Below are positions 6,557 through 64,000 of a stretch of DNA of 64,000 bases, piece after piece; position 1 is the stretch's first letter, and each line of letters begins with the position of its first letter. The notes under the pieces are model-generated. The model was not told the origin of the DNA and searched no databases. It saw only the letters and a program-made list of their open reading frames with translations. The DNA lies in assembly GCF_012271785.1 (NCBI RefSeq), contig NZ_JAAWVT010000013.1, positions 1 to 64,000 on the forward strand. The letters are read 5' to 3'. Source of the stretch: Paeniglutamicibacter terrestris. Its GTDB lineage: Bacteria > Actinomycetota > Actinomycetes > Actinomycetales > Micrococcaceae. The position numbers and the translations under genes are program-made.

Positions 6557-6593
6557 ACCGGCTTCGGCGCTACGCCGTCAGCAACAAACTCAT

Positions 6594-7429: not shown

Positions 7430-8643
7430 CCCCGTCCTCCTTCCGACGCCGCGCCGTGAGCGAGGGCCGTGTTGTGTGTGTGCTCGCCCCGGAGGGGAGC
7501 CGAATTCTCTTCAGTGCCTGTGTCGTCAACCATCGGCAGTCGCACGGTGAATGTTGAGCCCTGACCGGGCTGTGACCAGAGGGTGATTTCTCCACCGTGG
7601 TTGGCCACCACGTGCTTAACAATGCTCAGGCCCAGCCCGGTGCCGCCGGTGTGGCGGGAGCGGGCGGCATCAATACGGTAGAACCGCTCGAAGATCCGGT
7701 CTTGTTCATCCGGGGCGATGCCCGGGCCCTGATCGGTGACGGAAACCTGAACCAAGCCATCGCGCTGGCGCAAGCCCACCCCAACCGTCGTGTCTTCCGG
7801 TGAATACCGGATGGCGTTGTCAATCAGGTTCCGCAGCGCGGTCATGAGCAGGTCCCTGTCGCCAAAGACATCGTGGTCAACGTTGCCTCCCACGGAGATC
7901 TTAATGTTCTTCTCCTCGGCCGGCAGCTTGTTGCGGTCAACCGCCTCGGCCAGGACATCATTAATGTCCACCCGTTCACCGGCCAACACCACGTCGGTCC
8001 CCTGCAGTCGGGACAGTTCGATGATGTCCTGGACCAATGCCGCCAGACGGGCGGATTCCTTGTACAACCGCGTGGTGAAACGGCGCACTGCCACCTCGTC
8101 GTCGGCCGCTCCATCGATGGCCTCGGCCAGCAGGGAGATCGCGCCGACGGGAGTCTTGAGCTCGTGGGAGACGTTGGCAACGAAGTCGTTGCGTACCGCG
8201 GCCGTGCGAGTGATCTCGGTGCGGTCATCGGCCAGCAGCAGGATGTATTCCTCACCCAAAGGGGCGATGCGCACATGAACCACCATATTGGCGGCGCCCA
8301 TCGCACCGCGCTGCAGCTCGAACTCGCGTTCGGCAATCACCCCATCGCCGCGGACCTGGCTGGCCAGGGTGCGCAACTCGTCGTGAATCAGCGTATGGCC
8401 GCGGACCAGTCCGTATGCATAGGAAGCGGGATTGGCTCGCACCACCCCGTCGACCTCATCAAGAATCACGAAGGCACGGCCAATGACAGAGAGCACTTCG
8501 GCGGAACCTTCGGGCAGTGTAGGTTCACCCACGACCGGGAGCCCACGGCGCGATCGCCGGGAGCCCCAGTACGCCATGATGCCCACAATGCCTAGGGCCA
8601 GCCCGACGAGGCCCGCAACAACGGATAACAAGACATCATTCAC
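7426..8643 (-). CDS. senX3: Sensor histidine kinase SenX3
   Basis: The 405-residue membrane sensor has one N-terminal transmembrane helix (about residues 5-26), a PAS-like region (about 45-145) and a HisKA domain with phosphoacceptor His160 in VSHELKTP. The HATPase domain carries N and G boxes (LIDNAIRYS, VTDQGPGI, GGTGLGLSIVK). It phosphorylates RegX3 in response to phosphate limitation. The C-terminus after the kinase is a short low-complexity tail. The start is GTG at 8643, with AGGAGG almost abutting it, so an internal start is possible. Confidence 0.94.
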   Translation of the reverse strand: MNDVLLSVVAGLVGLALGIVGIMAYWGSRRSRRGLPVVGEPTLPEGSAEVLSVIGRAFVILDEVDGVVRANPASYAYGLVRGHTLIHDELRTLASQVRGDGVIAEREFELQRGAMGAANMVVHVRIAPLGEEYILLLADDRTEITRTAAVRNDFVANVSHELKTPVGAISLLAEAIDGAADDEVAVRRFTTRLYKESARLAALVQDIIELSRLQGTDVVLAGERVDINDVLAEAVDRNKLPAEEKNIKISVGGNVDHDVFGDRDLLMTALRNLIDNAIRYSPEDTTVGVGLRQRDGLVQVSVTDQGPGIAPDEQDRIFERFYRIDAARSRHTGGTGLGLSIVKHVVANHGGEITLWSQPGQGSTFTVRLPMVDDTGTEENSAPLRGEHTHNTALAHGAASEGGRG

Positions 8644-8705
8644 GCCTCCTAGCCTAACGGTGGCGGAGCCCGCGATCCGTGCACTTACGCGTGTTTATAC
8701 GACGC

Positions 8706-8745
8706 GTTCACGAAACGTTCACTTCGTTGGAGTGAACGGTTCACC
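8706..8745 (+). promoter_or_regulatory. PHO box (RegX3-type direct repeats) between senX3 and phoU
   Basis: GTTCAC occurs at 8706 and 8717 with exactly 11-base periodicity, and GTTCACC recurs at 8739, exactly 22 bases later. An inverted copy, GTGAAC, lies at 8732-8737 between them. Eleven-base GTTCAC repeats are the known layout of actinobacterial PHO boxes. The site likely makes both phoU and senX3-regX3 responsive to RegX3. Confidence 0.8.
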
Positions 8746-8824
8746 CGGTGCTGTAACAATGGACATGAACAGTTCCGTGGTCCGTGCCGGACGCGGTGCT
8801 CCACCGTAGCGAAAGGACGCCCGC

Positions 8825-9484
8825 GTGCGTAAGGTTTTCCAGGCCGATCTGCAACAAATCGGAGAAGAACTCATCGAGATGTCACGTTTGGTGGCTTCGG
8901 CGATGGATCGCGCCTACGAGTCGTTTGCGAATGCGGATATCGAGCTGGCGCAGGAAGTTATCGCCGAGGACGCGAAAATTGATTTCCTGCAGAACCAGCT
9001 GGACGAGCGCGCCATCGACGTCTTGGCGCTCCAGGGCCCGGTGGCCTCGGACCTGCGGATGATCGTCGGTTCGCTGCGCATGAGTGCCTCGCTGGAACGC
9101 ATGGGAGATTTGGCTCGCCACGTCGCCCAGCTGGCTCGCCTGCGCTTCCCGCAGCAGGTCGTTCCCGAATCCATCGCCCCCACCTTCAAGGCCATGGCAG
9201 AGCTCGACATTCAGATCGTCGGCAAGGTCGGTCAGTTGCTGGACACCCGCGATCTGTCACTGGCACGCGAGATCATCGAGCTGAATACCAAGATTGATGA
9301 GCTGCACGCCTCGATCTTCCGCATCGTGGCGGCTCCCGAGTGGACCTACTCCGGACCGACGACAGCCGATGTCACCCTGACCAGCCGCTACCTAGAGCGC
9401 TTTGGCGACCACGGGGTGTCTGTTGCTCGCAAGGTTTCCTACCTGGTGACCGGCGAGTGGGATCCGGATATCTCGCTCTTCTAA
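8825..9484 (+). CDS. phoU: Phosphate signalling regulator PhoU
   Basis: The 219-residue protein has two copies of the PhoU three-helix bundle (about residues 1-105 and 115-219). Metal-binding signatures are visible in each half: MSASLERMGDLARHVA and TSRYLERFGDHGVSVA, the E-R-x-G-D-H type. PhoU damps phosphate signalling by linking the Pst transporter to the SenX3 kinase. The start is GTG at 8825. It is divergent from senX3 across the PHO box. No pst transporter genes are in the window. Confidence 0.95.
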   Translation: MRKVFQADLQQIGEELIEMSRLVASAMDRAYESFANADIELAQEVIAEDAKIDFLQNQLDERAIDVLALQGPVASDLRMIVGSLRMSASLERMGDLARHVAQLARLRFPQQVVPESIAPTFKAMAELDIQIVGKVGQLLDTRDLSLAREIIELNTKIDELHASIFRIVAAPEWTYSGPTTADVTLTSRYLERFGDHGVSVARKVSYLVTGEWDPDISLF

Positions 9485-9503
9485 ACCAATAAAGTTCAGT
9501 ACT

Positions 9504-9541
9504 AAGGAAGCGAGCCCGCCATTCGGCGGGCTCGCTTCCTT
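9504..9541. terminator. Bidirectional terminator after phoU
   Basis: AAGGAAGCGAGCCCGCC and GGCGGGCTCGCTTCCTT form a perfect 17-base stem with an ATTC loop. It lies between the convergent phoU and DUF4193 genes. Confidence 0.9.
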
Positions 9542-9688
9542 GTTAATAGCGTTCTTCGGGTCCACCAAATACACCGAGGCGCCATTTAAACGCCAAACCG
9601 CCACACGTATCTCACCGGTGGCCCAAGGGCCAGCGGGGAATTACGGTGCAGCGGCAGTGTTCGTGGCGCAGGAAGCCGAATCGGCTCC

Positions 9689-9991
9689 TTAGCCCTCGCA
9701 GTCGCGGCAGTAGGCCACGCCATTTGATTCGCGCGCCAGCAGCGTGCGGTGGCGGATCAGGAAGCAGGATCCGCAAAGGAACTCGTCTTCCTTCTGCGGA
9801 ATGACGGTAACCGTCAGTTCCTCGTTCGACAGGTCGGCACCGGCCAGTTCAACACCATCCGAGGTATCTTCCTCGTCTAGGTCCCGAGACACGCTACGTG
9901 CGTCGGGGGCGTTGGCGGACTTTACCGCTTCCAGGGAGGCTTTACGGGCCTCGGCTACGTCGGGCCGGACCTCGTCATAATCAGTTGCCAC
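9689..9991 (-). CDS. DUF4193 family small zinc-ribbon-like protein
   Basis: This 100-residue actinobacterial protein of unknown function starts MATDYDEVRP, the typical DUF4193 N-terminus. The GTG at 9991 is chosen over the ATG at 10000 because AAGGA lies nine bases upstream and because it restores the family start. The middle is acidic (DLDEEDTSDG). The C-terminal third has two CxxC pairs (FLCGSC and YCRDC) that probably bind zinc. In relatives it is often near RNA polymerase or sigma-factor genes, but no such link is visible here. Confidence 0.88.
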   Translation of the reverse strand: MATDYDEVRPDVAEARKASLEAVKSANAPDARSVSRDLDEEDTSDGVELAGADLSNEELTVTVIPQKEDEFLCGSCFLIRHRTLLARESNGVAYCRDCEG

Positions 9992-10244
9992 GAAATGCAA
10001 TCCTTACGTGATTCAGGGGTACGTCGAGACGACACAGTACAGCATGAACCCGAGTGCGCAAGTGCCAGCGGCTGTTTTTACGCCTCTCGCGCACAGATTG
10101 TGACAAGGCATACCTTTTGGCCCCACTTCTTCGTACTTCATCCATGGCCCACGGCACAGTGCGCGCGTCGCCTCAATGAAGCCCAAAAGCCCTGCTGAGT
10201 TAGTCCGCGGGCAGTGCCCGGAGCACGAGGTGCTTAACGCAAAA
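9992..10244. other. Intergenic region between DUF4193 and the gpmA terminator
   Basis: It contains the minus-strand AAGGA ribosome site of the DUF4193 gene. I see no convincing coding sequence and no operator. Confidence 0.4.
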
Positions 10245-10297
10245 GGGGCCCTGCCCCAGCACCGCCACAAAATAGTGGAGTGCCGGCGCAGGGCCCC
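10245..10297 (-). terminator. Terminator downstream of gpmA
   Basis: GGGGCCCTGC and GCAGGGCCCC form the stem. On the minus strand the hairpin is followed by TTTTGCGTT, about 50 bases past the gpmA stop. Confidence 0.75.
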
Positions 10298-10347
10298 GAT
10301 AGCTGCCCCGTGGATAGTGATTTCGGAGCGAGGTAAGAACCGGTGGC

Positions 10348-11091
10348 TTAGCGGCCCTGGTTGGCCACGGCCTTGATGGCGTCGGCGGCTGCGTCCGCAT
10401 CAAGGTACTGTCCTCCGCGGGTGACCGGGGTGAAGTCCTCATTCAATTCGTAGACCAGCGGGATGCCGGTGGGGATGTTCAGCGACGCGATGTCCTCGTC
10501 GCTGATGCCATCGAGGTGCTTAACCAGTGCGCGCAGCGAGTTGCCGTGCGCGGTGACCAGTACCGTCTTGCTGGCGACTAGGTCGGGCTTGATCTCATTT
10601 TCCCAGTACGGGAGCATGCGATCCAGAACATCCTTGAGGCATTCGGTGCGCGGGGCAGCATCACCGAGATCCGCGTACCGCGGATCGTTGATCTGGCTGA
10701 ACTCCGAGTCATCATTCAGCGCCGGCGGCGGGGTGTCGTAGCTACGACGCCATTCCATAAACTGCTCCTCGCCGTATTCGGCCAGGGTTGCCGCCTTGTC
10801 CTTGCCCTGCAGCGCACCGTAGTGGCGCTCGTTCAGGCGCCAGTTGCGCTTGACCGGGATCCAGGACAAGTCGGCCGACTCGAGGGCCAGGTTGGCGGTG
10901 ATGATGGCGCGCTTGAGCAACGAGGTGTGCAGGACGGCCGGGACCAGTCCTGCCTCGGTGAGCAGCTGGCCTCCGCGGGTAGCTTCGGCACGGCCTTTCT
11001 CGGTGAGCGATACGTCGTACCAACCGGTGAACAGGTTCTTTTCGTTCCACTCGCTTTGCCCGTGGCGCAGCAGGATCAGGGTGTAAGTCAT
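10348..11091 (-). CDS. gpmA: 2,3-bisphosphoglycerate-dependent phosphoglycerate mutase
   Basis: This glycolytic/gluconeogenic enzyme interconverts 3- and 2-phosphoglycerate in the cytoplasm. The 247-residue product has the RHG phosphohistidine motif ([12 protein letters not shown]), the NLFTGW substrate segment, RHYGALQG and the second catalytic histidine in [13 protein letters not shown]. The length matches the dPGM family. The start is the ATG at 11091 ([11 protein letters not shown]); an in-frame ATG three codons upstream (11100) is the alternative. Confidence 0.96.
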
Positions 11092-11177
11092 AGTTCCCAT
11101 TCTAGGACGCGTGAAGTGCCTTACTTTATTCCGTGACGTGTTCCCGGCGCGGTGCGCGACACTTTAGGCTTGAAGCA

Positions 11178-12035
11178 ATGGTTCAGAAAGCGACTCGGCT
11201 TGGCGGACGGTCCCGGACCGGTCGCCCCCTGGGTAATACCACCCGCGGAACCACGAACCCCAATCGCATGCGCCGCGTTGACCGCTGGTTAACCGGACCC
11301 CAGGGTTGGCGCCTACGCCCCGCGGTCACCGGTGCCCCGCCCATCGCCGTGGATCTTGGCTACGGGGCATCCCCGAGAACCGCTGTTGAATTCTTCGAGC
11401 GCATTCGCGCCGTGTCACCGTCTGCACGTGTTGTCGGCATCGAGATTGAACCCGAACGGGTGGCCCGCGGTGTGGCTCTTGAACTCGAGGGCCTGGACTT
11501 TATGCTCGGTGGCTTCGAAATCCCCGTTGCTGCTCAGGTGAGCGTGATCCGCGCCTTTAATGTGCTGCGGCAGTATGACGAGGCGGATGTGCCGGGCATC
11601 TGGGACACCATGGCCTCGCGCCTCACCACCACCGGTGTGCTGATCGAGGGCACCTGCGATGAGATCGGCCGGCGCAGCAGCTGGGTGGCGGTGACCAAGG
11701 ACGGCCCCCAAACACTGAGCATCTCACTGCGCTTTGGCGCCTTCGAGCTGCCCTCCGATGTGGCGGAGCGGCTGCCCAAGGCACTGATCCACCGCAACAT
11801 CACCGGGGAACGCATTCACGAATTTCTTGGTGCCGCCGATGCCGCCTGGTTAACCGCGTCCCCACTGGCCACCTTCGGAAACAGCCAACGCTTTGTGGCC
11901 ATGTGTCGCGCCCTTCGTGAAGACGGCTGGCCCATCTGCGATTCGGCAGCACGCTGGCGCTTGGGCGAAATGACGGTTTTATGGGACGCCGTGGCACCGC
12001 GCAGCGGAGCCTTAGCCCGCGTCGAAGAGAACTAG
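11178..12035 (+). CDS. Class I SAM-dependent methyltransferase-like protein
   Basis: The 285-residue protein has a Rossmann-like motif I (IAVDLGYGASPRTAVEFF, about residues 56-73), an acidic motif II (RVVGIEIEPERV) and a later FNVLRQYDE segment, the general layout of SAM methyltransferases. The N-terminal ~35 residues are basic. The substrate cannot be inferred. The ATG at 11178 is preferred to 11133 because the extra N-terminus looks non-coding. It is divergent from gpmA. Confidence 0.78.
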   Translation: MVQKATRLGGRSRTGRPLGNTTRGTTNPNRMRRVDRWLTGPQGWRLRPAVTGAPPIAVDLGYGASPRTAVEFFERIRAVSPSARVVGIEIEPERVARGVALELEGLDFMLGGFEIPVAAQVSVIRAFNVLRQYDEADVPGIWDTMASRLTTTGVLIEGTCDEIGRRSSWVAVTKDGPQTLSISLRFGAFELPSDVAERLPKALIHRNITGERIHEFLGAADAAWLTASPLATFGNSQRFVAMCRALREDGWPICDSAARWRLGEMTVLWDAVAPRSGALARVEEN

Positions 12036-12101
12036 CCAGCAACGGATTTATCCGTACCTACAAGTGGTACAGAAGAGCTCGTGTCGATAGATAATTGAGC
12101 C

Positions 12102-12569
12102 ATGGTCCTTGGTGCTGCACGAAGCGGAAAGCAAATGCTGATGCTGCTGTGCGTGATCGTGTTGTTGGTGCTGGTATCGCTGGTTGTTGTCTTGACCCGT
12201 GGCGCGTCGAAGCCGCTTGATGTGCACAGTCCTGCCGGGGTGGTTCAGGGGTATGTCACCGCCGTGGTGAACGGCGACGAGGACACCGCACGCAAATTTC
12301 TCACCGACGTAGACGACAAACGCTGCGACGGGTATGAATCGGTGGCCCCCGAGCGGAACATCAGGGTTGCCCTGGTGCGCACCACCCAGCACGAAGCCAC
12401 CGCCGACGTGGTAGTTTCCATTTCCTACAGCAACGTCTCGGGACCCTTCGGCAGCCCCGAATACGCTAACGAGGAATCCTTCGAGTTAGACCGGGTTGCT
12501 GGCACTTGGCGCATCTCCAGTGCGCCGTGGCCCCTGCTGGTCTGTGCAGATGAGGGGTTCAAACCATGA
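12102..12569 (+). CDS. Small single-pass membrane protein, possible NTF2-like extracellular domain
   Basis: The 155-residue protein has a basic start and one hydrophobic helix (about residues 12-33), followed by an extracytoplasmic domain. The segment SPAGVVQGYVTAVVNGDEDTA resembles the first helix of NTF2-like or DUF4878-type domains, and two cysteines (CDGY and VCAD) could pair outside the cell. The stop overlaps the start of the next gene (ATGA), so it is coupled to the polytopic protein. The function is unknown. Confidence 0.75.
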   Translation: MVLGAARSGKQMLMLLCVIVLLVLVSLVVVLTRGASKPLDVHSPAGVVQGYVTAVVNGDEDTARKFLTDVDDKRCDGYESVAPERNIRVALVRTTQHEATADVVVSISYSNVSGPFGSPEYANEESFELDRVAGTWRISSAPWPLLVCADEGFKP

Positions 12570-14239
12570 GCGCCGACCGTGAAACGGGCATCCGGCCGGT
12601 GGCTCCAGCCTTAGGCACACTGCGGCGCATCATCTTGTACATCTTGCTCTTTGCTCTTCTCTCCATCACCGCCTCCGGCGTTGGCTCGCTCTTGGGCTGG
12701 GCGTTTACCGCCGGCGATGTGCTGGTTGCCGCGGACTCTTCCTCGCTGGCGCTTGCACTAGCGCTGACCTTGGTGGGCGGCCCGCTGGGCGCCGTAGCCT
12801 TCTGGGCCAGTTGGCGACTGCTGCGCTCTCCGGCGGAACGGCGCTCCACGGCGTGGGGGGTTTACTTCTCCGCCATGTACATCACCTCGCTGATCACCGC
12901 CTCCAGTTTCATCCTCGGTGGATTGGCCCACTGGATCGGCGGGGACACCGGATCCGTCAAAACCTCGCTGGGGCAGGGGCTGGGTTGGGCAGCGGTGTGG
13001 TGCTGGCACCGGTGGATGCTGGTCCACAGCACGCGCGGGCCGGTGGCCCTGGCCACGGTGCCCACGCTCCTCGGTTGGGCGTTCGGGCTGGTTCTTGGCC
13101 TTGGGGCCGCCAGCAACGCCTTGGGGTTGCTCTTTGACCGAGCCCTGGGGGCGCAAGAGGATCTGGCGGTCGTTGGGAGCCCCTGGTGGCGCGGCGCCCT
13201 AGGACTGTTGGTTTGGGCCGTTGGCGGAGCGGTGATCTGGTGGTGGCATTGGTTCCGCTCTGGGGCCAGCACGCTGCACACCACTCTGGCCGGGGTAGCG
13301 GTGGTGTCCCTGGGGGTGGGGGTCTCAAGCATCTTGGCCCTGGGCGGCGTGGGGATCGTGCTTTTTGTGCTGCTGCGGTTGGGGCTGGATCGCAGCGATC
13401 CGCTGCCCATCGTGTTGGATCCTGCCCCCGAGGCGCTGGCTGCGGGTTTACTGGGGCTGCTCTCCTGGCTCTACCACGCAAGGATCGTGAGTAACCGGCC
13501 GGCACCTCTTCCGGCAGCCGCAGGACTCGCCATTTCCGGAGTCACCCTGATCGCGTGGGCTTCCGGTCTAGGCGTGGTGGTGAATGCGGGTCTGTCCACG
13601 GCCACCACCCGTTTGGGTGGCACCGATTCGTTGCAGCTGCTCTTGGCTGGACTCAGTTCGTTGGCCGTGGGCGCTCCGTTGTGGTGGTTCTCCTGGCGTT
13701 CGGCCCGGTCCTTTGACCAGCAAGGTCGGCGCATCTATCTAGTTCTGGTCTTTGGAATCAGCGCGGTGGTATCCCTGGTGACGCTGCTAGTGATCGGCTT
13801 CCGGCTCTTTGAGTTCATCTTGGGAGATACGAGTACATCGGGACTGCTTGAGCGCGTCAGGGCGCCGTTGGGTCTGTTGGTCGCCACTGCACTGGTGGCC
13901 GGCTACCACTTTGTACTGTGGCGCCATGCCCGTGAGCTCACCGAGCACGCCGAAGCACCGGGCGTCCCGGGGAGCAGACCCAAGCTCGGTCTCGCCGAGG
14001 TGGTGCTAGTGGCCGGTGCCGATGCCCCGGATCTCGCCGCGGTGATCCGGGCGCACACCGGCGCCCGTGTCACGGTGTTGCTGCGCCAGGAGCCGGCCGG
14101 TACGACGCTCTCCGTGGAGCAGGTCCTCCAGAGCCTGCGCGGCCACGGTGCGCGGCGGATCCTGCTGCTGGTGGGTCCGGGAGACCGGCTGGAGGTCACC
14201 GCGCTGGCCAATGACTTGCCGATGATCGGTTCCGGGTAA
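12566..14239 (+). CDS. DUF5671-type polytopic membrane protein
   Basis: The 557-residue integral membrane protein has roughly a dozen or more hydrophobic helices. Four related modules, each opening with a basic/aromatic segment before a pair of helices, recur: LRRIILYILLFALL near 19, WGVYFSAMYITSLI near 97, TLHTTLAGVAVVSLG near 238 and RRIYLVLVFGISAVV near 390. This fits tandem DUF5671 domains. A soluble tail of about 90 residues follows the last helix. It is translationally coupled to the preceding small membrane protein. The biochemical role is unknown. Confidence 0.78.
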   Translation: MSADRETGIRPVAPALGTLRRIILYILLFALLSITASGVGSLLGWAFTAGDVLVAADSSSLALALALTLVGGPLGAVAFWASWRLLRSPAERRSTAWGVYFSAMYITSLITASSFILGGLAHWIGGDTGSVKTSLGQGLGWAAVWCWHRWMLVHSTRGPVALATVPTLLGWAFGLVLGLGAASNALGLLFDRALGAQEDLAVVGSPWWRGALGLLVWAVGGAVIWWWHWFRSGASTLHTTLAGVAVVSLGVGVSSILALGGVGIVLFVLLRLGLDRSDPLPIVLDPAPEALAAGLLGLLSWLYHARIVSNRPAPLPAAAGLAISGVTLIAWASGLGVVVNAGLSTATTRLGGTDSLQLLLAGLSSLAVGAPLWWFSWRSARSFDQQGRRIYLVLVFGISAVVSLVTLLVIGFRLFEFILGDTSTSGLLERVRAPLGLLVATALVAGYHFVLWRHARELTEHAEAPGVPGSRPKLGLAEVVLVAGADAPDLAAVIRAHTGARVTVLLRQEPAGTTLSVEQVLQSLRGHGARRILLLVGPGDRLEVTALANDLPMIGSG

Positions 14240-14377
14240 AAATTCTCGGTAGCGTAACGCTGTGTGAGCGCCACACCTAGCGCGGCGTCCCCCACTTCGA
14301 TTCGCCGGTGTCCACGCCGATCAACGGCGTGGGCAGGTGGCCGTGGCGGGATTCTCCTGCAGCGGAAATGAGGCACA

Positions 14378-14422
14378 AAAAGGGCGCGATGCCGCGACAA
14401 ATCCGCAGTATCGCACCCCTTT
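14378..14422 (-). terminator. Terminator downstream of the DUF2516 gene
   Basis: AAAGGG-GCGAT pairs imperfectly with ATCGC-CCC-TTT. On the minus strand a TTTTTG run follows. The preceding 14240-14377 stretch holds no gene that I can support. Confidence 0.7.
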
Positions 14423-14458
14423 GAAGCTATTGCGCGGGCGCTTAGCCCCACGGTAGCC

Positions 14459-14764
14459 CTAGTACGGGTAGTAGCCACCCTTGCCGGAAACTGCCGGCTT
14501 CACGTCCGCCAGATACACGCAGGCAATGCAGGCACCGATGAGCTGGAACATTCCGCCGCCGCCGCCCGAGAACAACGAAAGCAGGCAGACCAAGGTGGCT
14601 GCGGCGCTCATGCCCATCCAGAACTGCTTGGTGCGCTTGTTTTCGCGCTGGAAGTTGGCTGCCGGACGCCGCACCGCGTCAGCCAGCGCCATAACGGCCA
14701 GCACCACGGCAACTACACCGAGCGCAAGCATGAGGTAACGGTCGAACATGTGGGCATAAATCAT
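14459..14764 (-). CDS. DUF2516 family membrane protein
   Basis: The 101-residue actinobacterial membrane protein has hydrophobic helices at about 11-29 (LMLALGVVAVVLAVMAL), 49-65 and 72-87, with a basic cytoplasmic loop NKRTKQFWMGM. The family signature YLADVKPAV is near the C-terminus, which ends in an aromatic GGYYPY. The function is unknown. It lies immediately downstream of the trans-sulfuration enzyme gene on the opposite side of a short gap. Confidence 0.88.
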   Translation of the reverse strand: MIYAHMFDRYLMLALGVVAVVLAVMALADAVRRPAANFQRENKRTKQFWMGMSAAATLVCLLSLFSGGGGGMFQLIGACIACVYLADVKPAVSGKGGYYPY

Positions 14765-14773
14765 GGTTCTAGC

Positions 14774-15919
14774 CTAGCGGGAATCGCTCAGCGCCGCTTC
14801 AAGATCGGCATACAAGTCCTCCACATTTTCGATGCCGACGCTCAGCCGCACCAAATTTTCGGGCACGGTGCCTGGTTCCCCCGGATGACGCCGACGCCTC
14901 TCGGCCAGGGATTCGACCCCACCCAGCGACGTGGCGGGGGTCCACAGCTGCAGCGCAGCAAGCATCCGATCGGCAGCCTCCGGGCCGGCGGCGATCTCGA
15001 TGCCGATGATCGCGCCAAAACCATCAAGCTGTTCCGCAGCCCGGGCGTACCCCGGGTCCTGCGGCAGGCCCGGGTAACGCACCAGTGAAATGGCAGGGTG
15101 CTCGGCCAGACGCCGCGCCAGTTCCCCGGCGTTCGCCTCGGCCTTATCCAGACGCAGGGCCATGGTGCGGATGCCACGCAACGTCAGCCAAGCCTCAAAG
15201 GGCCCGGGGATCGCACCGTGCAGGGTCCGCATGGAGTGCAGACGGGCGTGTAGTTCCGGGTTGCGCGTCACCACGGCACCGAGGACCACATCCGAGTGTC
15301 CACCCATGTACTTGGTAGCGGAATGCACCACGACGTCCGCACCTTGCTGCAGTGGGCGTTGGCGCAGCGGCGTGGAGAAGGTGTTATCCACTACCGTCAG
15401 GACTCCGGCTTCCTTGGCCGCTTTCAGCAATACCGGCAAATCGGCGACCTCAAGCATCGGGTTGGTGGGTGACTCCAGCCAGGCCATATCGGCACCCACC
15501 AGGGCTGCGAGCACCGCATTGGTGTCGGCAAGATCCACCCGGCGAACACTTAAGCCCAGCGTGACTTCAAGTTCGGCGACTAGGGCCAGTGATCCGTTGT
15601 AAGCGTGAGAGGGGATCACGATGGTGTTCCCGGGTGCCAGCAGCGACAGGCCCGCGGCCACCGCCGCCATGCCCGAGGCATAAGCCAGGGCCGGCAGATC
15701 ACAGTCCTCGAGCGTGGCAATCATTTCTTCCAGCGGATCCCAGGTGGGATTCGTGAATCGCCCGTACACCTTTTCTCCCGCGCCGGGCACACCCAGCGAA
15801 TAGAACGTGGAGGAAAGCACGATGGGCGGGTTCACTGGCTGGTCAACGGCATGCGGCGGGCGCCCGGCGGACACCACAACGGTGTCCGGGGCCAGCGGCG
15901 CGAAATCAGGACGGGTCAT
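14774..15919 (-). CDS. PLP-dependent trans-sulfuration enzyme (cystathionine gamma-synthase/lyase family)
   Basis: This 381-residue Cys/Met metabolism enzyme should make or cleave cystathionine or related thioethers. Family marks are VYGRFTNPTWDPLE, ASGMAAVAA (cofactor phosphate loop), VVDNTFSTPL with the PLP-binding Asp, and the PLP Lys in HSATKYMGGHSDVVLG. The SLGGVESL segment is also typical. Sequence alone does not separate synthase from lyase. The ATG at 15919 is favoured over 15985 because GGGAAGG lies upstream and MTRPDFAPL is family-like. No Met-pathway partner is adjacent. Confidence 0.9.
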   Translation of the reverse strand: MTRPDFAPLAPDTVVVSAGRPPHAVDQPVNPPIVLSSTFYSLGVPGAGEKVYGRFTNPTWDPLEEMIATLEDCDLPALAYASGMAAVAAGLSLLAPGNTIVIPSHAYNGSLALVAELEVTLGLSVRRVDLADTNAVLAALVGADMAWLESPTNPMLEVADLPVLLKAAKEAGVLTVVDNTFSTPLRQRPLQQGADVVVHSATKYMGGHSDVVLGAVVTRNPELHARLHSMRTLHGAIPGPFEAWLTLRGIRTMALRLDKAEANAGELARRLAEHPAISLVRYPGLPQDPGYARAAEQLDGFGAIIGIEIAAGPEAADRMLAALQLWTPATSLGGVESLAERRRRHPGEPGTVPENLVRLSVGIENVEDLYADLEAALSDSR

Positions 15920-16035
15920 GATTTTTAGATTACCTTCCCACCCCCGTTGCTCCCACTCTGATGACGTGGGTTTCGAGCGGATCACCGTCGCTTGCCTGTC
16001 TCGATGCGAGCCGTGGGGAAGATAGGCTGGTAGGT

Positions 16036-16710
16036 GTGAATGACGCGCAGCAGAACCTTCAGCACACCGGCCGCTTCATAGTCTTTGAAGGTGGTGACGG
16101 TGCCGGCAAATCGACGCAGGCGGCACTGCTTGCCAAGGCGCTGCGCGAACGCGGTCATACGGTGCTGCACACCCGGGAACCAGGTGGCACCCCCATCGGG
16201 GAGAAATTGCGTTCGCTGGTTCTTGACCATGGGCAGGGCACTGTTGATGCGCGCACCGAGGCACTGATGTACGCGGCGGCCCGTGCCGCTCACGTCGAAC
16301 AGGTCATCCGCCCCGCCCTGGCCGCCGGCACCATGGTGATCTGCGACAGATTCATCGATTCATCCCTGGCGTATCAGGGCATTGGCCGGGAACTCGGCGA
16401 AGATGCCGTGCGAGCCATCAACGAATTTGCCACCGGCGGGCTGCTGCCGGACCTCACGGTGCTCTTGGATGTCTCCCCCGCCGCCGGACGTTCGCGACGC
16501 ATCGTTGACGCGGACGGACAGTCGGTGAGCGAAGATCGTCTGGAATCCGAACCGGATTCCTTCCACTTACTGATCCGCGACGCCTTTGTACACTTTGCTA
16601 CCCGGGAACCAGCGCGCTATCTGGTCCTTGATGCCACCACCGGCATCACGGAGCTAGCCGAAGCGATCTTTGGCACCGTGTCGAATCTACTAAACGGGCC
16701 AAGGTCCTAA
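16036..16710 (+). CDS. tmk: Thymidylate kinase
   Basis: This enzyme phosphorylates dTMP to dTDP. The 224-residue product has the P-loop FEGGDGAGKST, the dTMP site TREPGGTPIGE, and DRFIDSSLAYQG. The GTG at 16036 is the chosen start, with a weak AGG-type site. The upstream in-frame extension to 15961 reads as non-coding. holB begins two bases after the stop, the standard tmk-holB pair. Confidence 0.95.
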   Translation: MNDAQQNLQHTGRFIVFEGGDGAGKSTQAALLAKALRERGHTVLHTREPGGTPIGEKLRSLVLDHGQGTVDARTEALMYAAARAAHVEQVIRPALAAGTMVICDRFIDSSLAYQGIGRELGEDAVRAINEFATGGLLPDLTVLLDVSPAAGRSRRIVDADGQSVSEDRLESEPDSFHLLIRDAFVHFATREPARYLVLDATTGITELAEAIFGTVSNLLNGPRS

Positions 16711-57171: not shown

Positions 57172-57187
57172 AACTGACCAGTCAGTT
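57172..57187 (+). promoter_or_regulatory. TetR-type operator upstream of the YhgE operon
   Basis: AACTGAC-CA-GTCAGTT is a perfect 7-7 palindrome. It lies between a candidate -35 TTGAAC (57169-57174) and -10 TACGAT (57193-57198), where a repressor would block transcription. Confidence 0.75.
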
Positions 57188-57204
57188 TGGTTTACGATGG
57201 TTTT

Positions 57205-58116
57205 GTGCTCATCGCCGATAACCTGGCCATTGCCGGTCGCCACCTGCCCCTGCTGGATCCCACCAGCCTTGCCGTCGCGCGCGGCGAACTTCTGCTGATC
57301 CAGGCCGATACCCAAACCACGCGCACCGCGCTGTCTCTAGGACTGAGCGCACGCATGCGCCCCAGCGAGGGAAGCGTCAGCTGGCTCGGGGATTCCTCAC
57401 TCAAAGCGGTACGCCGCATCAGCGCCATCGTTGACTCCCCCCAGATCAACGATCCGGAGGCACACATGAAGGTCCGCGACCTGGTGGCCGAGGACCTTTC
57501 ACTCATTCCGGGTTCCAGACGGCGACGACCCAAGACCAAAACGTGGATTCAAGAGCACCATCTGGAGTCCTTGGCCGATCAATACCTCGATGCCATCGAA
57601 CCGCTTGACCGCCTCACCCTGATGACCGAGCTGGCCCTTGAAGATGCCCACGTTGAGCTGTTGGTCTTCGACACCCCGGAACGCCACGGGATTCCCGAAG
57701 AGATGTGGTGCACCTTCCTAGAATCGGTGTCCACCGGCGAACGAGCCCCGGCCATCATCGCCGTGGTGCAGCGCCTCCCCGAACAGTGGTCGGGCCCCAA
57801 CGCCTACGACGGCGGTATTCAGGACAAGCTGGAGGTTCCCTTCGGCTCGATTCACGCAGATCTCCCCGCGGACGAACCCACGGAGGAACCCGAAACCAAG
57901 GCAGCACCGGCACACCTCGCAGACCCCGAGCCAGCTCCAGCGGTCGGCGTTGATATCCCCGGCGAAACCGAATCCTCTCCGAAGCACCTCGAGGGTGCTG
58001 CTCCCGCACATGCAGCAAGCGTTGACATCCCGGAAGTCAGCTCACCGGTCGATGCGATCGAGGACGCCCCGGTCGAAACCACCACACTTCCCACCGCAGC
58101 AAAGGACCTCTCATGA
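57205..58116 (+). CDS. Degenerate ABC-ATPase-like protein with acidic tail
   Basis: The 303-residue protein has an N-terminal ~210 residues with the ABC-ATPase layout (DNLAIAGRHLPLLDPTSLAV, LVFDTPE in the Walker B position) but no Walker A lysine: residues 34-42 read ADTQTTRTA. No LSGGQ is recognisable; DRLTLMTELAL occupies its place. It therefore probably does not hydrolyse ATP. The C-terminal ~90 residues are Ala/Pro/Glu-rich with repeated VDIP units. The likely start is GTG 57205, possibly leaderless, since the -10 element is only seven bases away. Its stop overlaps the YhgE gene (ATGA). Confidence 0.75.
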   Translation: MLIADNLAIAGRHLPLLDPTSLAVARGELLLIQADTQTTRTALSLGLSARMRPSEGSVSWLGDSSLKAVRRISAIVDSPQINDPEAHMKVRDLVAEDLSLIPGSRRRRPKTKTWIQEHHLESLADQYLDAIEPLDRLTLMTELALEDAHVELLVFDTPERHGIPEEMWCTFLESVSTGERAPAIIAVVQRLPEQWSGPNAYDGGIQDKLEVPFGSIHADLPADEPTEEPETKAAPAHLADPEPAPAVGVDIPGETESSPKHLEGAAPAHAASVDIPEVSSPVDAIEDAPVETTTLPTAAKDLS

Positions 58117-60431
58117 CCACGTTGCGTCTGGCTCTGTCCGAACTCAAGCGCATGACCTCCGGTCGCCTACCGAAGATCGCGATCGCCGCATTGACTCTGG
58201 TCCCGCTGCTCTACGGAGCGCTCTACCTTTACGCAAACTGGGACCCGTATTCCAATCTGCACAACGTCAAGGCCGCCATCGTGAACCTGGATCAGGGTTC
58301 CACCAAGGACGGCAAGGACCTCGCTGTAGGTGATGACGTCACCACCGAATTGATGGAGGATGGCACCTTCGGTTGGAACCAGGTGTCCACCGAGGCCGAA
58401 GCCGAGGCGGGTGTTGCCTCCGGCGATTATGCCTTCGCGATGACCATCCCCGCAGATTTCTCCGCCAACCTCGCCTCCCCCGGCGACTTCGAGGCGGCCA
58501 AACAGGGCATCTTGAAACTCACCACCAACGATGCAAACAACTACATGGTCGGCACCTTCGCCGACAAGCTGGCCGGCCAGGTGCACAACACCGTGGCCGC
58601 CGAGGTTGGAACGCAGACCGCCGATGCCCTGCTCACCGGTTTCACCGAGATCCACACCTCGATGTCCAAGGCCGCAGATGGCGCCGGGAAACTACACACC
58701 GGCACCGTGAAACTCTCCGACGGTGTCACCACGCTGGCCGATGGCGTGAACACGCTGGATGATGGAGCCGGCAAACTTGATGCCGGGGCCGCGGATCTTT
58801 CCCAAGGTGCCAACACCCTGCACGACGGCACCTCCTCGCTGTTAGCCGGGCAAAAGAAGCTCGCCACCGGTGCGAACTCGCTCGCCGCTGGGGCAGACAC
58901 GCTGGCCGATGGCACCAAGGAACTCAACGCCGGTCTGGCCGAACTAAAGTCCAAAACTTCGGCCCTTCCCGCGAAGACCCAACAGCTTAATGATGGTGCG
59001 CAGAAGGCCTCCGATGCGTCCGTCCAGCTCGCCGATGGCGCCGCCGAGGTGGCAGCCGGCAACAAGGCCCTGGATGACAAGGTCACGCAGGCAGCAGAAA
59101 CCCTCACCGCCCTGGAAAAAGATGCCAATACCCGCATCGATTCGGCCACCGAGGCCCTGAACACCCGTCTGGATCAATTGGTCACCGAGGGGATCCTCAC
59201 CAGCGAACAGGCCAAGACCCTGCGCACCGATGTCACGAACGCCGCAAAATCCAGCGGTGTCAGCGAACAGGTGGCCGACACCAAAAAGCAGTTGACCACC
59301 GCCCAATCCCAGATCTCCGCTCTTGCCGACGGCTCGGCGAAGGTCGCGGCCGGCGCCAAGCAACTATCCGGAGGCCTCTCTACCCTGGCTGACGGAACCG
59401 AAACCCTGGCCGGGGCCATGCCCGCGCTCAAAACCGGTATCGGAGATGCCGCTGCGGGCGCATCCGCCCTCAACACCGGAGCCCAAAAACTCTCTGACGG
59501 TGCCGATACCCTGGCCGACGGTGAAGCAGACGCACTGGCTGGTACCAAGAAGCTGAACAGCGGTGCCTCAACGCTGGCCGCCGGAACCACCACCTTGCAC
59601 GAGGGAACCGGCTCGCTACTCGCCGGCGTGGGTGACCTCGGCGACGGGGTCGGTGAGCTCGGCGACGGGGCCACCGAACTGAGTGATGGTTCCTCCGAGC
59701 TGTCCACCAAACTCACCGACGGCACCGATGAGGTACCCAACCCCAACGCGGCAGACCGTGATCAAGTTTCGAACATCATCGGCGATCCGGTAGCCATCGA
59801 TCGCACGGACCAGGCCAAGGCCTCGGTCTACGGCGAAGGACTGGCCCCGTTCTTCATGACCCTAGCCATCTTCATTGGTGCCTTCATGCTCATCCAGCTC
59901 ATGCGCCCGATTACCGCACGCGCGCTGGCCTCCAACGCCTCCAACTGGAAAATCGCCATCGGCGGTTGGCTGCCCTTCTTCTTCATCTCGATCATTCAGG
60001 GCACCATCCTCTACCTGGTCGTGATCTTCGGCCTCGGGCTCAATACCGCCCACCCGTGGATGACCTGGGGACTCTTCCTGCTGGCGTCGATGGCGTTCAC
60101 CGCCATCATCCAGGGCATCTGCGCACTAGCCGGCACGCCGGGCAAGATGGTGGTCCTGGTATTGATGGTGCTGCAGCTGGTTTCCTCCGGCGGAACCTTC
60201 CCCTGGGAAACCACCCCCAAGATCCTGCACATTGCCCACCAATGGCTGCCCATGGGACATGTCGTCACCGGCCTGCGCCACCTGATGTACGGAGCGGATC
60301 TCACGGTGCTCGGCCCCGTGGTGGCCGGGCTCATCGGCTACACCGTGCTGGGCCTGCTGGCCAGCACCCTGGCGGTACGCTTGCACAAGACATGGTCCCT
60401 GAAAACACTGCATCCGGAGCTGAGTGCATGA
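58113..60431 (+). CDS. YhgE/Pip family membrane protein
   Basis: The 772-residue protein has an N-terminal membrane helix (about 21-40), a long extracytoplasmic region and several C-terminal helices (about 577-765), the YhgE/Pip layout related to ABC-2 type permeases and type VII secretion EsaA. Two blocks of xLxxGxx heptads (about 200-280 and 407-532), such as TLADGVNTLDDG, flank a coiled-coil-like stretch. It is coupled to both neighbours by ATGA overlaps. The degenerate ABC partner may assist its assembly. The substrate is unknown. Confidence 0.9.
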   Translation: MTTLRLALSELKRMTSGRLPKIAIAALTLVPLLYGALYLYANWDPYSNLHNVKAAIVNLDQGSTKDGKDLAVGDDVTTELMEDGTFGWNQVSTEAEAEAGVASGDYAFAMTIPADFSANLASPGDFEAAKQGILKLTTNDANNYMVGTFADKLAGQVHNTVAAEVGTQTADALLTGFTEIHTSMSKAADGAGKLHTGTVKLSDGVTTLADGVNTLDDGAGKLDAGAADLSQGANTLHDGTSSLLAGQKKLATGANSLAAGADTLADGTKELNAGLAELKSKTSALPAKTQQLNDGAQKASDASVQLADGAAEVAAGNKALDDKVTQAAETLTALEKDANTRIDSATEALNTRLDQLVTEGILTSEQAKTLRTDVTNAAKSSGVSEQVADTKKQLTTAQSQISALADGSAKVAAGAKQLSGGLSTLADGTETLAGAMPALKTGIGDAAAGASALNTGAQKLSDGADTLADGEADALAGTKKLNSGASTLAAGTTTLHEGTGSLLAGVGDLGDGVGELGDGATELSDGSSELSTKLTDGTDEVPNPNAADRDQVSNIIGDPVAIDRTDQAKASVYGEGLAPFFMTLAIFIGAFMLIQLMRPITARALASNASNWKIAIGGWLPFFFISIIQGTILYLVVIFGLGLNTAHPWMTWGLFLLASMAFTAIIQGICALAGTPGKMVVLVLMVLQLVSSGGTFPWETTPKILHIAHQWLPMGHVVTGLRHLMYGADLTVLGPVVAGLIGYTVLGLLASTLAVRLHKTWSLKTLHPELSA

Positions 60432-61036
60432 GTCAAAACGCCGAACCCCGTCCCAGGGTGCGGGCCACCGATTCGAAGCACCGTTTGTTCACCGCGTCGA
60501 TGGAACTGATCGGGGCCCGTGGGCACCACGCCGTGTCGGTTGATGAAATCGCCAAGGCCGCAGGGGTATCCAAGGGAACCGTATATTACAACTTCGGTTC
60601 CAAGGCGGAGCTGATCGGTGAGCTGCTGAACTACGGTGTGGCAATCCTCTTCGAACGATTGGCACAGGGCGCCGAGGATCCTGATCCGCTGACCGGACTG
60701 CGGATGATGATCGGAGATGCGCTGGAGTTCATTGCCGAATACCCGTCCTTTGCCCAATTGTGGATTTCCGAGCAATGGCAGTCCGACAGCCAATGGGCCA
60801 CCTCCTTGGCGAGCATGCGCCACGAGGTCATTAGCTTAGTGGCCACCGCCCTGGGAAAGATCGCCAGCAGCACTCCCGCGGCACCTGATAAAACCGCGGT
60901 AGATATTGACACACTTGCCACCGCGGTCTTTGGCGCGGCGCTGATTCTGGGCCGAGACCGCTTGGTTTTCCACCCCGAGCGCAGCATTGAATCCTGCGTC
61001 GGGGCGGTCATGGCCTTCACCGCGCCACTGCGCTAA
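60428..61036 (+). CDS. TetR-family transcriptional regulator
   Basis: The 202-residue repressor has an N-terminal HTH (VSVDEIAKAAGVSKGTVYYNFGSKAELIGELL, about residues 35-66) and a helical ligand-binding domain with a TetR_C type C-terminus. It is the last gene of the operon, overlapping the YhgE gene by four bases. The AACTGAC-CA-GTCAGTT palindrome before the first gene is its likely operator, so it probably represses its own operon. The ATG at 60428 is chosen; the longer frame is a shadow of YhgE. Confidence 0.93.
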   Translation: MSQNAEPRPRVRATDSKHRLFTASMELIGARGHHAVSVDEIAKAAGVSKGTVYYNFGSKAELIGELLNYGVAILFERLAQGAEDPDPLTGLRMMIGDALEFIAEYPSFAQLWISEQWQSDSQWATSLASMRHEVISLVATALGKIASSTPAAPDKTAVDIDTLATAVFGAALILGRDRLVFHPERSIESCVGAVMAFTAPLR

Positions 61037-61061: not shown

Positions 61062-62777
61062 CTATTGCGCTGCATCCAGATCCCAGAGCCGAAACCCCGC
61101 GCACCATGGCTCATCCGAGGCGATAATGACCACGCCCGGGTAGTTCAGCAAGGTGTTCTCCAGCCACGCCTTGGCACGCGGTTCCAGTTGAGCATCGATG
61201 CCATCAAGCAGCAGCAGCGCCGGTGAACCGAGCATCGCCCGCGCCGTCATCAGTCCCGCACGCTGGGTGCGGGTCAGCGGCATCCCACCGCGACGCAGGG
61301 CCGTGTCTTCCCGCTGCTCGAGCGAATCGATCCCCACACCGAGATCCCGCGCCAGATTCAAGGCCCGGGAAATATCGGTATCCGGGCGGCGGTACCGCAG
61401 GGCCCGGCCCAGAGTTCCACGTTCTGGCACCATCGAGGCAAAGGCGGCACCGATCAGTCGGCGGCGTTTCTTTTCGCTCACGGCCCCGGGGATTTGTCCG
61501 GCCACCACATACCCCAGGCCGCGATTCTCGCGTTCTTCGCCCAGCTCCCCCAAAATCTGTCTCGCGTTCGTGCGCGCGGTGGCCAACACCGCGAGCAGTT
61601 CCGAGCGCAGGCGCGCATCTTTGGCCCGCAGCAATATTTTCTCCCCCGGTGCTGCGCGTAGCTCCGGGATCCGGTGGCCGTTGATTTCGAGCCCGCGTAG
61701 CCACACCCCAGCAACGCGCGAGGCCTGGATCTGTGCGGCCGCCCGCGCAGCATTCTCCCGCAGGGCGGGGCCAGCGGTCAGTTCGCTTTCCTCAACCAGC
61801 AGCGGAGCAATAATCCGGGCCGCTGCCCGGTAATTTTGCCGGTACTCCACGATCCGGCCCCATTCCCCCACCGGGGCCGCGCACAGCCCTAACAGGGTCA
61901 GTGCCGTGGCGATCTGCCCGGCATCCAGGGCCGCATGCCGGGAAACCAGCACCAGAATCGCGGTGGCTGCCAAGGGTAGGGCCAGCGAGCAGGCGCGCAA
62001 CACTCCCGCCATCCGGGCCCGGGATACCGCAGCATCGCGCACCTTGGTTCCGCTGCCAGCGATCCTGGAAAGTTCGCGGGACACCCCACCTGCCGCCACC
62101 AGCGCAGAGCTAGCCGCGAGCGTGTCGGCCAGGCGGGCCGCTAAGTTGCCGCGGTGCCGGCGCAGGATCCGGGCCCGCTCGTAGGCGGGGCCCGCGAGAA
62201 GTCGCAGGACCACGCTCAGGAGCAGCACCGGAACTGCCAGCGCCAGCGCCAGCAGTGGGTGCAACGCCCAGAGTCCGAGCATGGAGATCAGCACCAACGG
62301 GATGCCGGCCAGTAGCGGCGCGATTCCTTGGGCCACCCAGTTGCGCACCGCGGCAAGATCATTGCTGGCCCGCGTCACGGTGATCCCCATTGAGGGGACT
62401 TTGGGTGCCAACAACGAGTGCGAGATCAACAAAAGTCGCAGTTGAGCCACGTAGTCCTGGCCCAGCTTTTCGGCTACAACACGTTCCAGATACCTGCCAT
62501 AGCCCCAGGCCAGGATCATCACGGCGATGCCCACGCTCAGCGGCACGATTGGTGCTCCGCTGACTAATGAGCCCAGAAGTAGGGCAATGCCCACGCCCAG
62601 TCCCGCGCACAGAATGGCGATGGTCAGCAGCGCGGCGAAGAGGCCGCGACGCTTTCCTCGCAGGAGCTGGGGCAGACGCGGCGTCGGCAGCGCTGCCGCT
62701 GGCCGTGTCTCCACCAGTTCCAGGGGCCGCGTCGTGGGACCCTCGGTCAGCTCCAGGTGGGCGTTATTCCCGCTCAC
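61062..62777 (-). CDS. ABC exporter-like protein with eroded nucleotide-binding domain
   Basis: The 571-residue protein has about five or six membrane helices (about residues 50-310) of the ABC exporter/CydC type and a C-terminal NBD-like domain. The Walker A region reads GEKILLRAKDARLRSELL (no G-x-x-G-x-G-K-S/T). The signature reads RRGGMPLTRTQR and Walker B ends LLLLDGIDAQL, with Gly in place of the catalytic Glu. It is therefore probably not a normal ATP hydrolase. The start is GTG 62777, overlapping the upstream stop (GTGA). It likely works with a missing or distant partner. Confidence 0.78.
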   Translation of the reverse strand: MSGNNAHLELTEGPTTRPLELVETRPAAALPTPRLPQLLRGKRRGLFAALLTIAILCAGLGVGIALLLGSLVSGAPIVPLSVGIAVMILAWGYGRYLERVVAEKLGQDYVAQLRLLLISHSLLAPKVPSMGITVTRASNDLAAVRNWVAQGIAPLLAGIPLVLISMLGLWALHPLLALALAVPVLLLSVVLRLLAGPAYERARILRRHRGNLAARLADTLAASSALVAAGGVSRELSRIAGSGTKVRDAAVSRARMAGVLRACSLALPLAATAILVLVSRHAALDAGQIATALTLLGLCAAPVGEWGRIVEYRQNYRAAARIIAPLLVEESELTAGPALRENAARAAAQIQASRVAGVWLRGLEINGHRIPELRAAPGEKILLRAKDARLRSELLAVLATARTNARQILGELGEERENRGLGYVVAGQIPGAVSEKKRRRLIGAAFASMVPERGTLGRALRYRRPDTDISRALNLARDLGVGIDSLEQREDTALRRGGMPLTRTQRAGLMTARAMLGSPALLLLDGIDAQLEPRAKAWLENTLLNYPGVVIIASDEPWCAGFRLWDLDAAQ

Positions 62778-63928
62778 AGCGAGGCGGCGCGCACCGGCAG
62801 CAGTGCGGTGGCGACCTCTGGGCGGCACAGGGCGTAGGTATCAATGACCCGGACCTCCAACTGTGCGGCGGCCTCGGCGGTGGCCAGCGGGGAGGCGGTG
62901 AGTAGACCGGAAATCGCCGCCACCGGCACTCCCGCGTCCTGCAGCACATCCAGCCCGGCGCGGGCGCCGAGCGCGTCTTGGGCCGAGAACACCACGGTGT
63001 CCACGTAGGCGGCAAAGAGAGGATCGCGCAGCAGTCGGGAGGTCTCGCCCTGGTAAAGGCCATCGGCGATCTCGATGACCACCACGTCGGCGCCGGAGGC
63101 AGCCTGCTCGTTGATCATCGCGGCCAGTAGGTCGCGTACCTGCTCGTAGGCGAGCTTGAAGGTGGTGGGGTAGCCAAAATCGGTGAAGTCGCAGACCGGG
63201 AAGGCACCGGCGTCGATGAACAGGTTCGGGTCGTTGCCCGCTCCGGTTCCGGTGGCCTTACCTGCTGCAACATTGAGCCCGGCGTTGGATAGTCCGTTGA
63301 CCAGGCAGCCCAGGGTGGTGGACTTGCCCGAGTTCATCGAGGTTCCCAGCACCGCGATGACCGGTGGGCGCACGGTGCCCTCTGCGCGCAGCGCGGCCAG
63401 CGACGGGGTGCCCACCTGCAGTGGGGCGAAGTCGCGCAGGTTGACCACGCCATCATTGGTGGCCAGCAGGCCGATCGGTTCGATGGCGGTGGCGGCGTCG
63501 ATGGAGGCGTGCATTTGGGTCACGTAGCCGGCCAGACCGCCACCGGCGATCAGGTGGCAGGGTTCCAGTGAGTCGGGCACGTGGGCCAGGAACTGGTCGG
63601 GGGCGTAGCGGTTGCCGTAGGCGACCATGATTTCCTGGCCCACGAACATTAGCTGGCGGCGGGAGACCGGGGATTCGAGGCGGGTGTGCTTGCCGATTTC
63701 GGCGACGCGGGCGATGACCACGTCTCCGGGCTGCGGGGTGATGGTGGCACCGGCGATGAGGTGGAAGTCCTCGGGGTGCTTGGAGAACTCGGTGGCCACA
63801 AAGCGGGTGGTGTAGGCGGCACGGATTTTCAGGGCGCGTTCGGCGCCAATTAGTTCCTGTCGCACTTCTCCGGCTGCAGCGTTGGGTGTTGCAAAGATGT
63901 CGGTTTCAAGGCTGGTGCTGATGCTCAT
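62774..63928 (-). CDS. P-loop protein, DUF1611/DgcN-like
   Basis: The 384-residue protein has an N-terminal ~175 residues of uncertain fold, with a beta-rich portion (QPGDVVIARVAEIGKHTRLES) and GNRYAPDQFLAHVP. A C-terminal NTPase follows: VLGTSMNSGKSTTLGCL (P-loop, about 194-210), then TGTGAGNDPNLFIDAGAFPVCDFTD and IADGLYQGET. This resembles the C-terminal domain of DUF1611 proteins such as DgcN, but that assignment is tentative. AAAGGA lies eight bases before the ATG. It is coupled to the ABC gene downstream and probably to the gene that ends at 63925. Confidence 0.78.
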   Translation of the reverse strand: MSISTSLETDIFATPNAAAGEVRQELIGAERALKIRAAYTTRFVATEFSKHPEDFHLIAGATITPQPGDVVIARVAEIGKHTRLESPVSRRQLMFVGQEIMVAYGNRYAPDQFLAHVPDSLEPCHLIAGGGLAGYVTQMHASIDAATAIEPIGLLATNDGVVNLRDFAPLQVGTPSLAALRAEGTVRPPVIAVLGTSMNSGKSTTLGCLVNGLSNAGLNVAAGKATGTGAGNDPNLFIDAGAFPVCDFTDFGYPTTFKLAYEQVRDLLAAMINEQAASGADVVVIEIADGLYQGETSRLLRDPLFAAYVDTVVFSAQDALGARAGLDVLQDAGVPVAAISGLLTASPLATAEAAAQLEVRVIDTYALCRPEVATALLPVRAASL

Positions 63929-64000
63929 GGTGTTGTCCTTTGGGTGCCGGAATCTGGTTCCGCATCGGAAGCGGTTGCAGGATGTGTTCCTGCGCTGTTC
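63925..64000 (-). CDS. 3' end of an upstream gene (partial)
   Basis: One minus-strand frame from the window edge stays open and ends in a TGA that overlaps the next gene's ATG (ATGA). The 24 residues seen are Ala/Thr/Ser/Pro-rich (HPATASDAEPDSGTQRTTP), typical of a low-complexity tail. The same ATGA coupling is used elsewhere in the window. Its identity is unknown. The alternative is that this is leader sequence only. Confidence 0.45.
   Translation of the reverse strand, partial: NSAGTHPATASDAEPDSGTQRTTP

Follow-up and report, generated by a model that had tools for sequence, protein, structure and literature searches.

A P-loop protein gene linked in Actinomycetota to an ABC exporter homologue without nucleotide-binding motifs

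The first 64,000 bases (bases 1-64000, hereafter the window) of the 90350-base contig NZ_JAAWVT010000013.1 of Paeniglutamicibacter terrestris contain on the minus strand a two-gene unit. The first gene encodes a P-loop protein of a conserved family (62774..63928, open reading frame (ORF) of 384 aa) and the second a homologue of ATP-binding cassette (ABC) exporters with a dead nucleotide-binding domain (NBD; 61062..62828, 588 aa if read from the furthest upstream GTG, at 62828, or 571 aa from the GTG at 62777). The two genes are linked across Actinomycetota, the nucleotide motifs of the ABC protein were lost with one main origin, and both proteins are under purifying selection. The reading which we prefer, and which we hold to be about as probable as its opposite, is that a P-loop enzyme acts with an ABC-fold partner no longer run by its own ATP hydrolysis, this partner being an ATP-independent translocator or a scaffold.

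Motif loss and selection in the ABC protein

Binding and hydrolysing ATP is the defining property of ABC transporters. The ABC protein of the window scored 31.3 bits with PF00664 (ABC_membrane, cut-off 28), and no match to PF00005 was reported for it in the Pfam search. The Walker A, signature and catalytic Glu of type IV ABC exporters were all missing from it. In the alignments, the motif is absent at the Walker A position (residues 399-411, 61596..61634, minus strand, as are all features of the unit given below), the ABC signature position (residues 513-530, 61239..61292) reads RRGGMPLTRTQRAGLMTAR, and the Walker B position (residues 538-545, 61194..61217) reads LLLLDGID, with Gly replacing the catalytic Glu. 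A first-pass annotation of this DNA had described an ABC protein without a canonical Walker A, with LRRGGMPLTRTQR as signature and with DG for DE at Walker B, and the sequence and the alignments bore out the three statements.

The predicted structure of this protein, with a mean predicted local distance difference test (pLDDT) of 85.8, is that of a complete type IV exporter and aligned with TmrB over 510 residues at Z 26.9. The transmembrane half (residues 52-352, 61773..62675) is modelled as six long helices with coupling helices, and the relic NBD (residues 372-588, 61065..61715) is predicted from the model and a residue table to be folded, without catalytic motifs. The type IV exporters TmrAB, CydDC, HlyB and PCAT1 share this whole fold of six helices and NBD (Z 25.0-26.9 over 489-516 residues). 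However, the window protein differs from them in the loss of the three motifs and in being tied to a P-loop gene, and its score with the CydC equivalog model was 41.2 bits against a cut-off of 329, outside CydC/CydD. At the level of the family, the Pfam NBD was detected in 13 of 51 ABC members at E up to 0.01.

Walker A was absent from 85 of the 92 full-length ABC proteins paired with a P-loop gene (loci are cited below by L numbers and genomes by G numbers), a count in which L199 probably repeats L091 and L191 is only half eroded; L257 and L119 are likewise probably the same contig counted twice. In 69 aligned eroded sequences, from which L191 was excluded, no row retained the Walker A Lys (0%), the Walker B Glu was seen in 4% and a signature Gly in 4%. 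Other positions had become fixed: N156 and P342 were constant in the 69 eroded rows and absent from the seven intact ones, and R251, R270, E328 and Q331 were constant in the eroded rows and partly so in the intact rows. Conserved Arg residues were also found in the helices (R131, R153, R162, R223, R226 and R251).

The ratio of nonsynonymous to synonymous substitution rates (dN/dS), obtained by a simple counting method from hand-chosen pairs of close relatives, stayed below 1 in all 13 pairs, for the transmembrane half (0.04-0.29), the NBD (0.055-0.55) and the P-loop protein (0.05-0.40), the NBD value lying above that of the transmembrane half in 12 of the 13 pairs. Motif loss is accompanied by purifying selection and, as the model predicts, by retention of the fold. 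Clade-wide conservation and dN/dS ruled out a local pseudogene. Separately, the ABC gene of Pseudarthrobacter sp. Fe7 (L126, 9086-10789) seems to shift frame in the NBD, and its match spans 452 aa only.

Recurrence of the pair and origin of the motif loss

Among 59 genomes (that of the window included), 16 contained the P-loop gene and 15 gave an ABC match of more than 250 bits. All 15 ABC-bearing genomes carried the P-loop gene at neighbouring coordinates, and G053 had a P-loop gene without such an ABC match. By the same measure, 10 of the 14 other genomes of the window's genus had both genes and four had neither. Of the 287 relatives that a scan of GTDB genomes gave for the P-loop protein, the best 80 were retained, so the locus sample leans to the eroded clade; among these 80 the nearest named relatives of the window's P-loop protein were in Paeniglutamicibacter. 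In 105 loci fetched for holding P-loop relatives, a six-frame profile search found the ABC gene adjoining 96 of 107 P-loop hits, a linkage that exceeds chance. The other 11 comprised L062, with no ABC gene found in the fetched stretch, the first tandem copy of L106, two hits at contig ends (L093 and L110) and seven distant relatives below 110 bits. In 16 further loci, picked with a profile of the P-loop proteins of the Walker-A-type ABCs, the ABC gene adjoined the P-loop gene in eight; it did not within the fetched stretch of L256, L260-L265 and L267.

Two unusual arrangements were seen among these loci. L106 (Corynebacterium pollutisoli, 6587-9095) has tandem copies of the P-loop gene ahead of one ABC gene, and in L267 the P-loop gene is split in two pieces. 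We found no description of the pair in the literature, where other wording or subscription journals could hide one.

ABC genes of the Walker-A-type adjoin the same P-loop gene in two sets of seven. In the first (L053, the second copy of L114, L192, L193, L206, L208 and L210) the Walker A Lys was present in 7/7, the catalytic Glu in 6/7, with Gln in L210, and the signature Gly in 6/7. The second (L252-L255, L258, L259 and L266) was scored on Walker A alone, the other motifs of L258 also reading intact. In the ABC trees the eroded proteins formed one clade, whether 69 rows (support of 100 in the Shimodaira-Hasegawa-like approximate likelihood ratio test (SH-aLRT), stem 1.73) or 48 rows (SH-aLRT 100, stem 1.26) were used, and the Walker-A-bearing relatives branched outside it. 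This clade spans 12 named families in the 69-row tree. The P-loop tree likewise placed the rows with an eroded partner together (48 rows, support 97).

The trees were quick ones without bootstrap, and the exact branch placement is unsure because L210 and the outgroup have long branches. The 69-row ABC tree omits 19 near-duplicate or truncated locus ids, and the 48-row set drops 22 more eroded rows and the P-loop row of L106. The P-loop tree includes six rows without an ABC gene (L062, L256, L260, L262, L264 and L265), omits L261, L263 and L267, and has as outgroup five of the seven distant relatives. In the P-loop and 48-row ABC trees L258 is labelled eroded by a strict pattern, though its Walker A is present.

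One main origin of the motif loss emerges from these trees, and the intact state of the ABC protein would be the ancestral one. The ABC protein of L191 (8289-10085), half-eroded with GRAGSGATA, VSPADRQ and LLLNRP, represents a second, separate and partial erosion. Both kinds of module coexist in Arthrobacter sp. AL12 (L114), where a Walker-A-type and an eroded module are convergent within about 8 kb (7836-16075), and in G007, whose second copy (L053) retains Walker A.

The P-loop protein and the surroundings of the pair

The P-loop protein carries its P-loop (Walker A) GTSMNSGKS at residues 195-203 (63320..63346, the protein reading GTSMNSGKST) and was modelled with a pLDDT of 91.7. Its score with DUF1611 (PF07755), 19.9 bits, did not reach the cut-off of 25. 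Among the matches listed, 45 of the 53 family members hit DUF1611 with E values of 0.1 or less (best 2e-5) and 9 of the 53 hit cobyric acid synthase (best E 0.0064), and the family profile also gave weak matches to MobB, AAA_26 and CbiA; against the sequences of solved structures this profile retrieved nothing convincing (best E 0.066). By structure, also among the matches listed, the C-terminal domain shares the P-loop domain fold of TM0796, dethiobiotin synthetase (Z 14.3) and DUF1611 (2obn, Z 13.7; 2g0t, Z 14.6) at Z 13.7-14.6, a range that becomes 12.9-14.6 with DgcN (7xrj, Z 12.9). The DUF1611 fold is therefore present but not specific, because dethiobiotin synthetase ties. Foldseek ranked the signal recognition particle GTPases first (E 8.9e-8).

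The protein departs from the DUF1611/DgcN group in its sub-threshold score, in its N-terminal domain and in its neighbours. The N-terminal beta-rich domain (about residues 55-160, 63449..63766), delimited by predicted strands and by an alignment in which R107-Y108-A109 is invariant, had no fold match, the listed whole-protein matches covering mostly the P-loop domain and the domain not having been searched alone. DgcN N-acetyltransferase has acetyltransferase activity on D-glutamate and dgcA as neighbour. No racemase-like neighbour of the pair was recognised by reading the translations, a DgcA profile search not having been made. The likeness to DUF1611 and DgcN proposed in the first-pass annotation was thus real but weak for DUF1611, and in fold DgcN did not resemble the protein more than dethiobiotin synthetase did. 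The MurT/GatD-type ligases named there were absent from the Pfam, NCBIfam and fold matches listed, the nearest being weak ones of CobQ/CobB type, and this identity was discarded. The best reading of the protein is a soluble enzyme of the dethiobiotin-synthetase/MobB/DUF1611-like superfamily, presumably of the SIMIBI class.

An alignment of 90 P-loop sequences, without L191, comprised 70 rows with an eroded ABC neighbour, 14 with an intact one and 6 with none. G195, M198, G201, K202 and T204 were invariant in it, S203 being replaced by Thr in other groups, and K224, D233, D247, E286 and D289 were also among the invariant residues. Since the core residues are invariant across the three settings, the activity of the protein is probably the same in all of them. 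Rows with an eroded partner were separated from those with an intact partner at S89, S203 (Ser for Thr beside the P-loop Lys), G223, F251 and T364; at the first four the rows without ABC resemble the intact-partner rows. Q112 was retained in paired rows and not in rows without ABC. With few lineages involved, these differences are no more than leads.

Concerning the organization of the unit, the GTGA overlap noted in the first-pass annotation is present at 62777-62774, where the stop of the P-loop gene overlaps an in-frame possible GTG start of the ABC gene, and it may couple the translation of both. AAAGGA at 63936..63941 probably serves the P-loop gene as ribosome-binding site. A further gene, thought to be joined upstream by an ATGA overlap and to run off the edge, did not hold up, that frame being an ORF of 33 codons starting with TTG. 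Extension past 64000, where a CydD/CydC partner had been considered, identified as the next minus-strand gene a histidine phosphatase (PF00300) whose end, at L002:9218, lies 288 bases upstream of the ATG of the P-loop gene (L002:8929); this ruled out a CydDC-type partner upstream. No ABC partner gene lies beside the pair in the window, and the loci of relatives were read by ORF clusters, without a systematic partner search. A promoter scan gave 0 sites against 0.3 expected, and terminator-like sites numbered 4 against 2.3 expected. The plus-strand neighbours (57187-61036) look like an ordinary unit of a 309-aa ORF that neither Pfam nor NCBIfam matched, a YhgE/Pip-type protein and a TetR-type regulator.

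The accessory genes near the pair vary by branch. A PGA_cap gene (PF09587) adjoins the Walker-A-type ABC gene in L053, L114 and L252. An alpha/beta hydrolase-like family occurs in L053, L114, L191, L210 and L252; only L252 passed the Pfam cut-off, L191 falling below it and L114 having no match. An HTTM-like membrane family lay close to the pair at 13 of the 105 loci (L096, L100, L101, L103, L107, L109, L110, L112, L132, L143, L061, L206 and L210, the ABC gene being of the Walker-A-type in L206 and L210) and was accompanied by a companion family in 12 of the 13, the profiles of both families having been built from some of the same loci counted. The name HTTM comes from L206 and L210, which passed PF05090; L061 had no Pfam match, and no HTTM match was present in the window's genome. 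These genes may indicate a product that is anionic or belongs to the cell surface. In L209 (5564-9818) a distant relative of the P-loop protein adjoins a thiamine-pyrophosphate enzyme (PF02775), an arrangement that resembles a small biosynthetic cluster.

Possible roles of the pair

The earlier description of the pair as a functional NTPase with an eroded exporter fits the sequences, in which the P-loop core is invariant and the ABC motifs are gone throughout the clade; the NTPase role is a predicted one. The accompanying idea that hydrolysis had been moved to another subunit was not borne out, and as an account of origin it failed. The P-loop gene also adjoins Walker-A-keeping ABCs, or stands alone, and therefore cannot have originated as a substitute engine; its late recruitment in place of a lost ATPase was rejected.

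In the reading that we prefer, the ABC-fold protein would descend from an ATP-driven exporter, a single loss of the motifs having occurred in the forebear of a large clade. The P-loop enzyme would make or modify a small, perhaps anionic, product, and the ABC-fold protein would pass it over the membrane without ATP hydrolysis of its own, either down its gradient or using an ion gradient as SbmA does. Alternatively, it might be the membrane scaffold of the P-loop enzyme. The relic NBD would be retained as a structural or docking domain. For an ABC exporter unable to use ATP by itself, the options are passive transport, transport driven by ions or by another protein, or a function other than transport. 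A mechanistic precedent is SbmA/BacA (SLiPT), an ABC transmembrane fold functioning without ATP hydrolysis; SbmA is a proton-driven transporter related to an ABC transmembrane domain (PMC13316013). However, SbmA is described there as the transmembrane domain alone, and the window protein, which by its predicted fold retains a relic NBD, falls outside the SLiPT group.

Several observations weigh against this reading. A few members of the eroded clade (e.g. L061 and L066) retain the Walker B Glu, and the long retention of a less constrained NBD is odd for a mere channel. In addition, the P-loop genes without an adjoining ABC gene (L062 and eight of the 16 further loci) indicate that the partnership is dispensable in places. 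Finally, ten other ABC_membrane matches in the genome make a partner ABC in trans conceivable.

Energy could be transferred between the two proteins, with the P-loop NTPase docked on the relic NBDs and powering the conformational cycle of the exporter by hydrolysis. The adjacency of 96 out of 107 hits, the fixed residues of an NBD predicted to be folded and the five positions that differ between eroded-partner and intact-partner rows would agree with it. However, the core residues are unchanged where the P-loop gene stands beside a Walker-A-keeping ABC or alone, and the solo rows match the intact-partner rows at S89, S203, G223 and F251, so that the changes may reflect clade ancestry. We consider this coupling unlikely. 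The complete scenario is a little more doubtful: a single ancient event would have inactivated the exporter's own ATPase, and a separate P-loop NTPase, acting via the relic NBDs, would now power the transport cycle. If true, this would be a transporter that exchanged its engine.

The ten other ABC_membrane matches also bear on the idea that the protein is half of a heterodimeric exporter with an intact partner encoded elsewhere in the genome. It shares a degenerate nucleotide site with TM287/288, TAP and MsRv1273c/72c and has the weak similarity to CydC (41 bits against 329) given above. According to a review, degenerate half-transporters are usual in heterodimers, and their degenerate sites are altered, several still binding ATP (PMC7756269). 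However, the window protein lacks Walker A, no partner gene adjoins the pair, and with the signature and the catalytic Glu also lost neither composite site would be workable by known rules. This makes the heterodimer improbable.

A pure membrane receptor or scaffold without a transport role would account for the loss of the nucleotide motifs and for the conserved Arg residues of the helices. However, the remainder of the transmembrane half is conserved too and the Walker-A-keeping relatives are presumably exporters, which leaves this role distinctly improbable. Decay of an exporter nearing loss, with only the P-loop enzyme mattering, would agree with the higher dN/dS of the NBD, with P-loop genes lacking an ABC neighbour and with the apparent frame shift of L126, but it is already disfavoured by the dN/dS of the transmembrane half, by an erosion of one origin kept across 12 named families and by the residues newly fixed in the eroded clade, and we regard it as very improbable.

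The eroded clade and its Walker-A-keeping sisters, placed beside the same neighbour gene, constitute a natural experiment on ABC exporters without ATP, and the pair supplies a gene context for an uncharacterised P-loop family.

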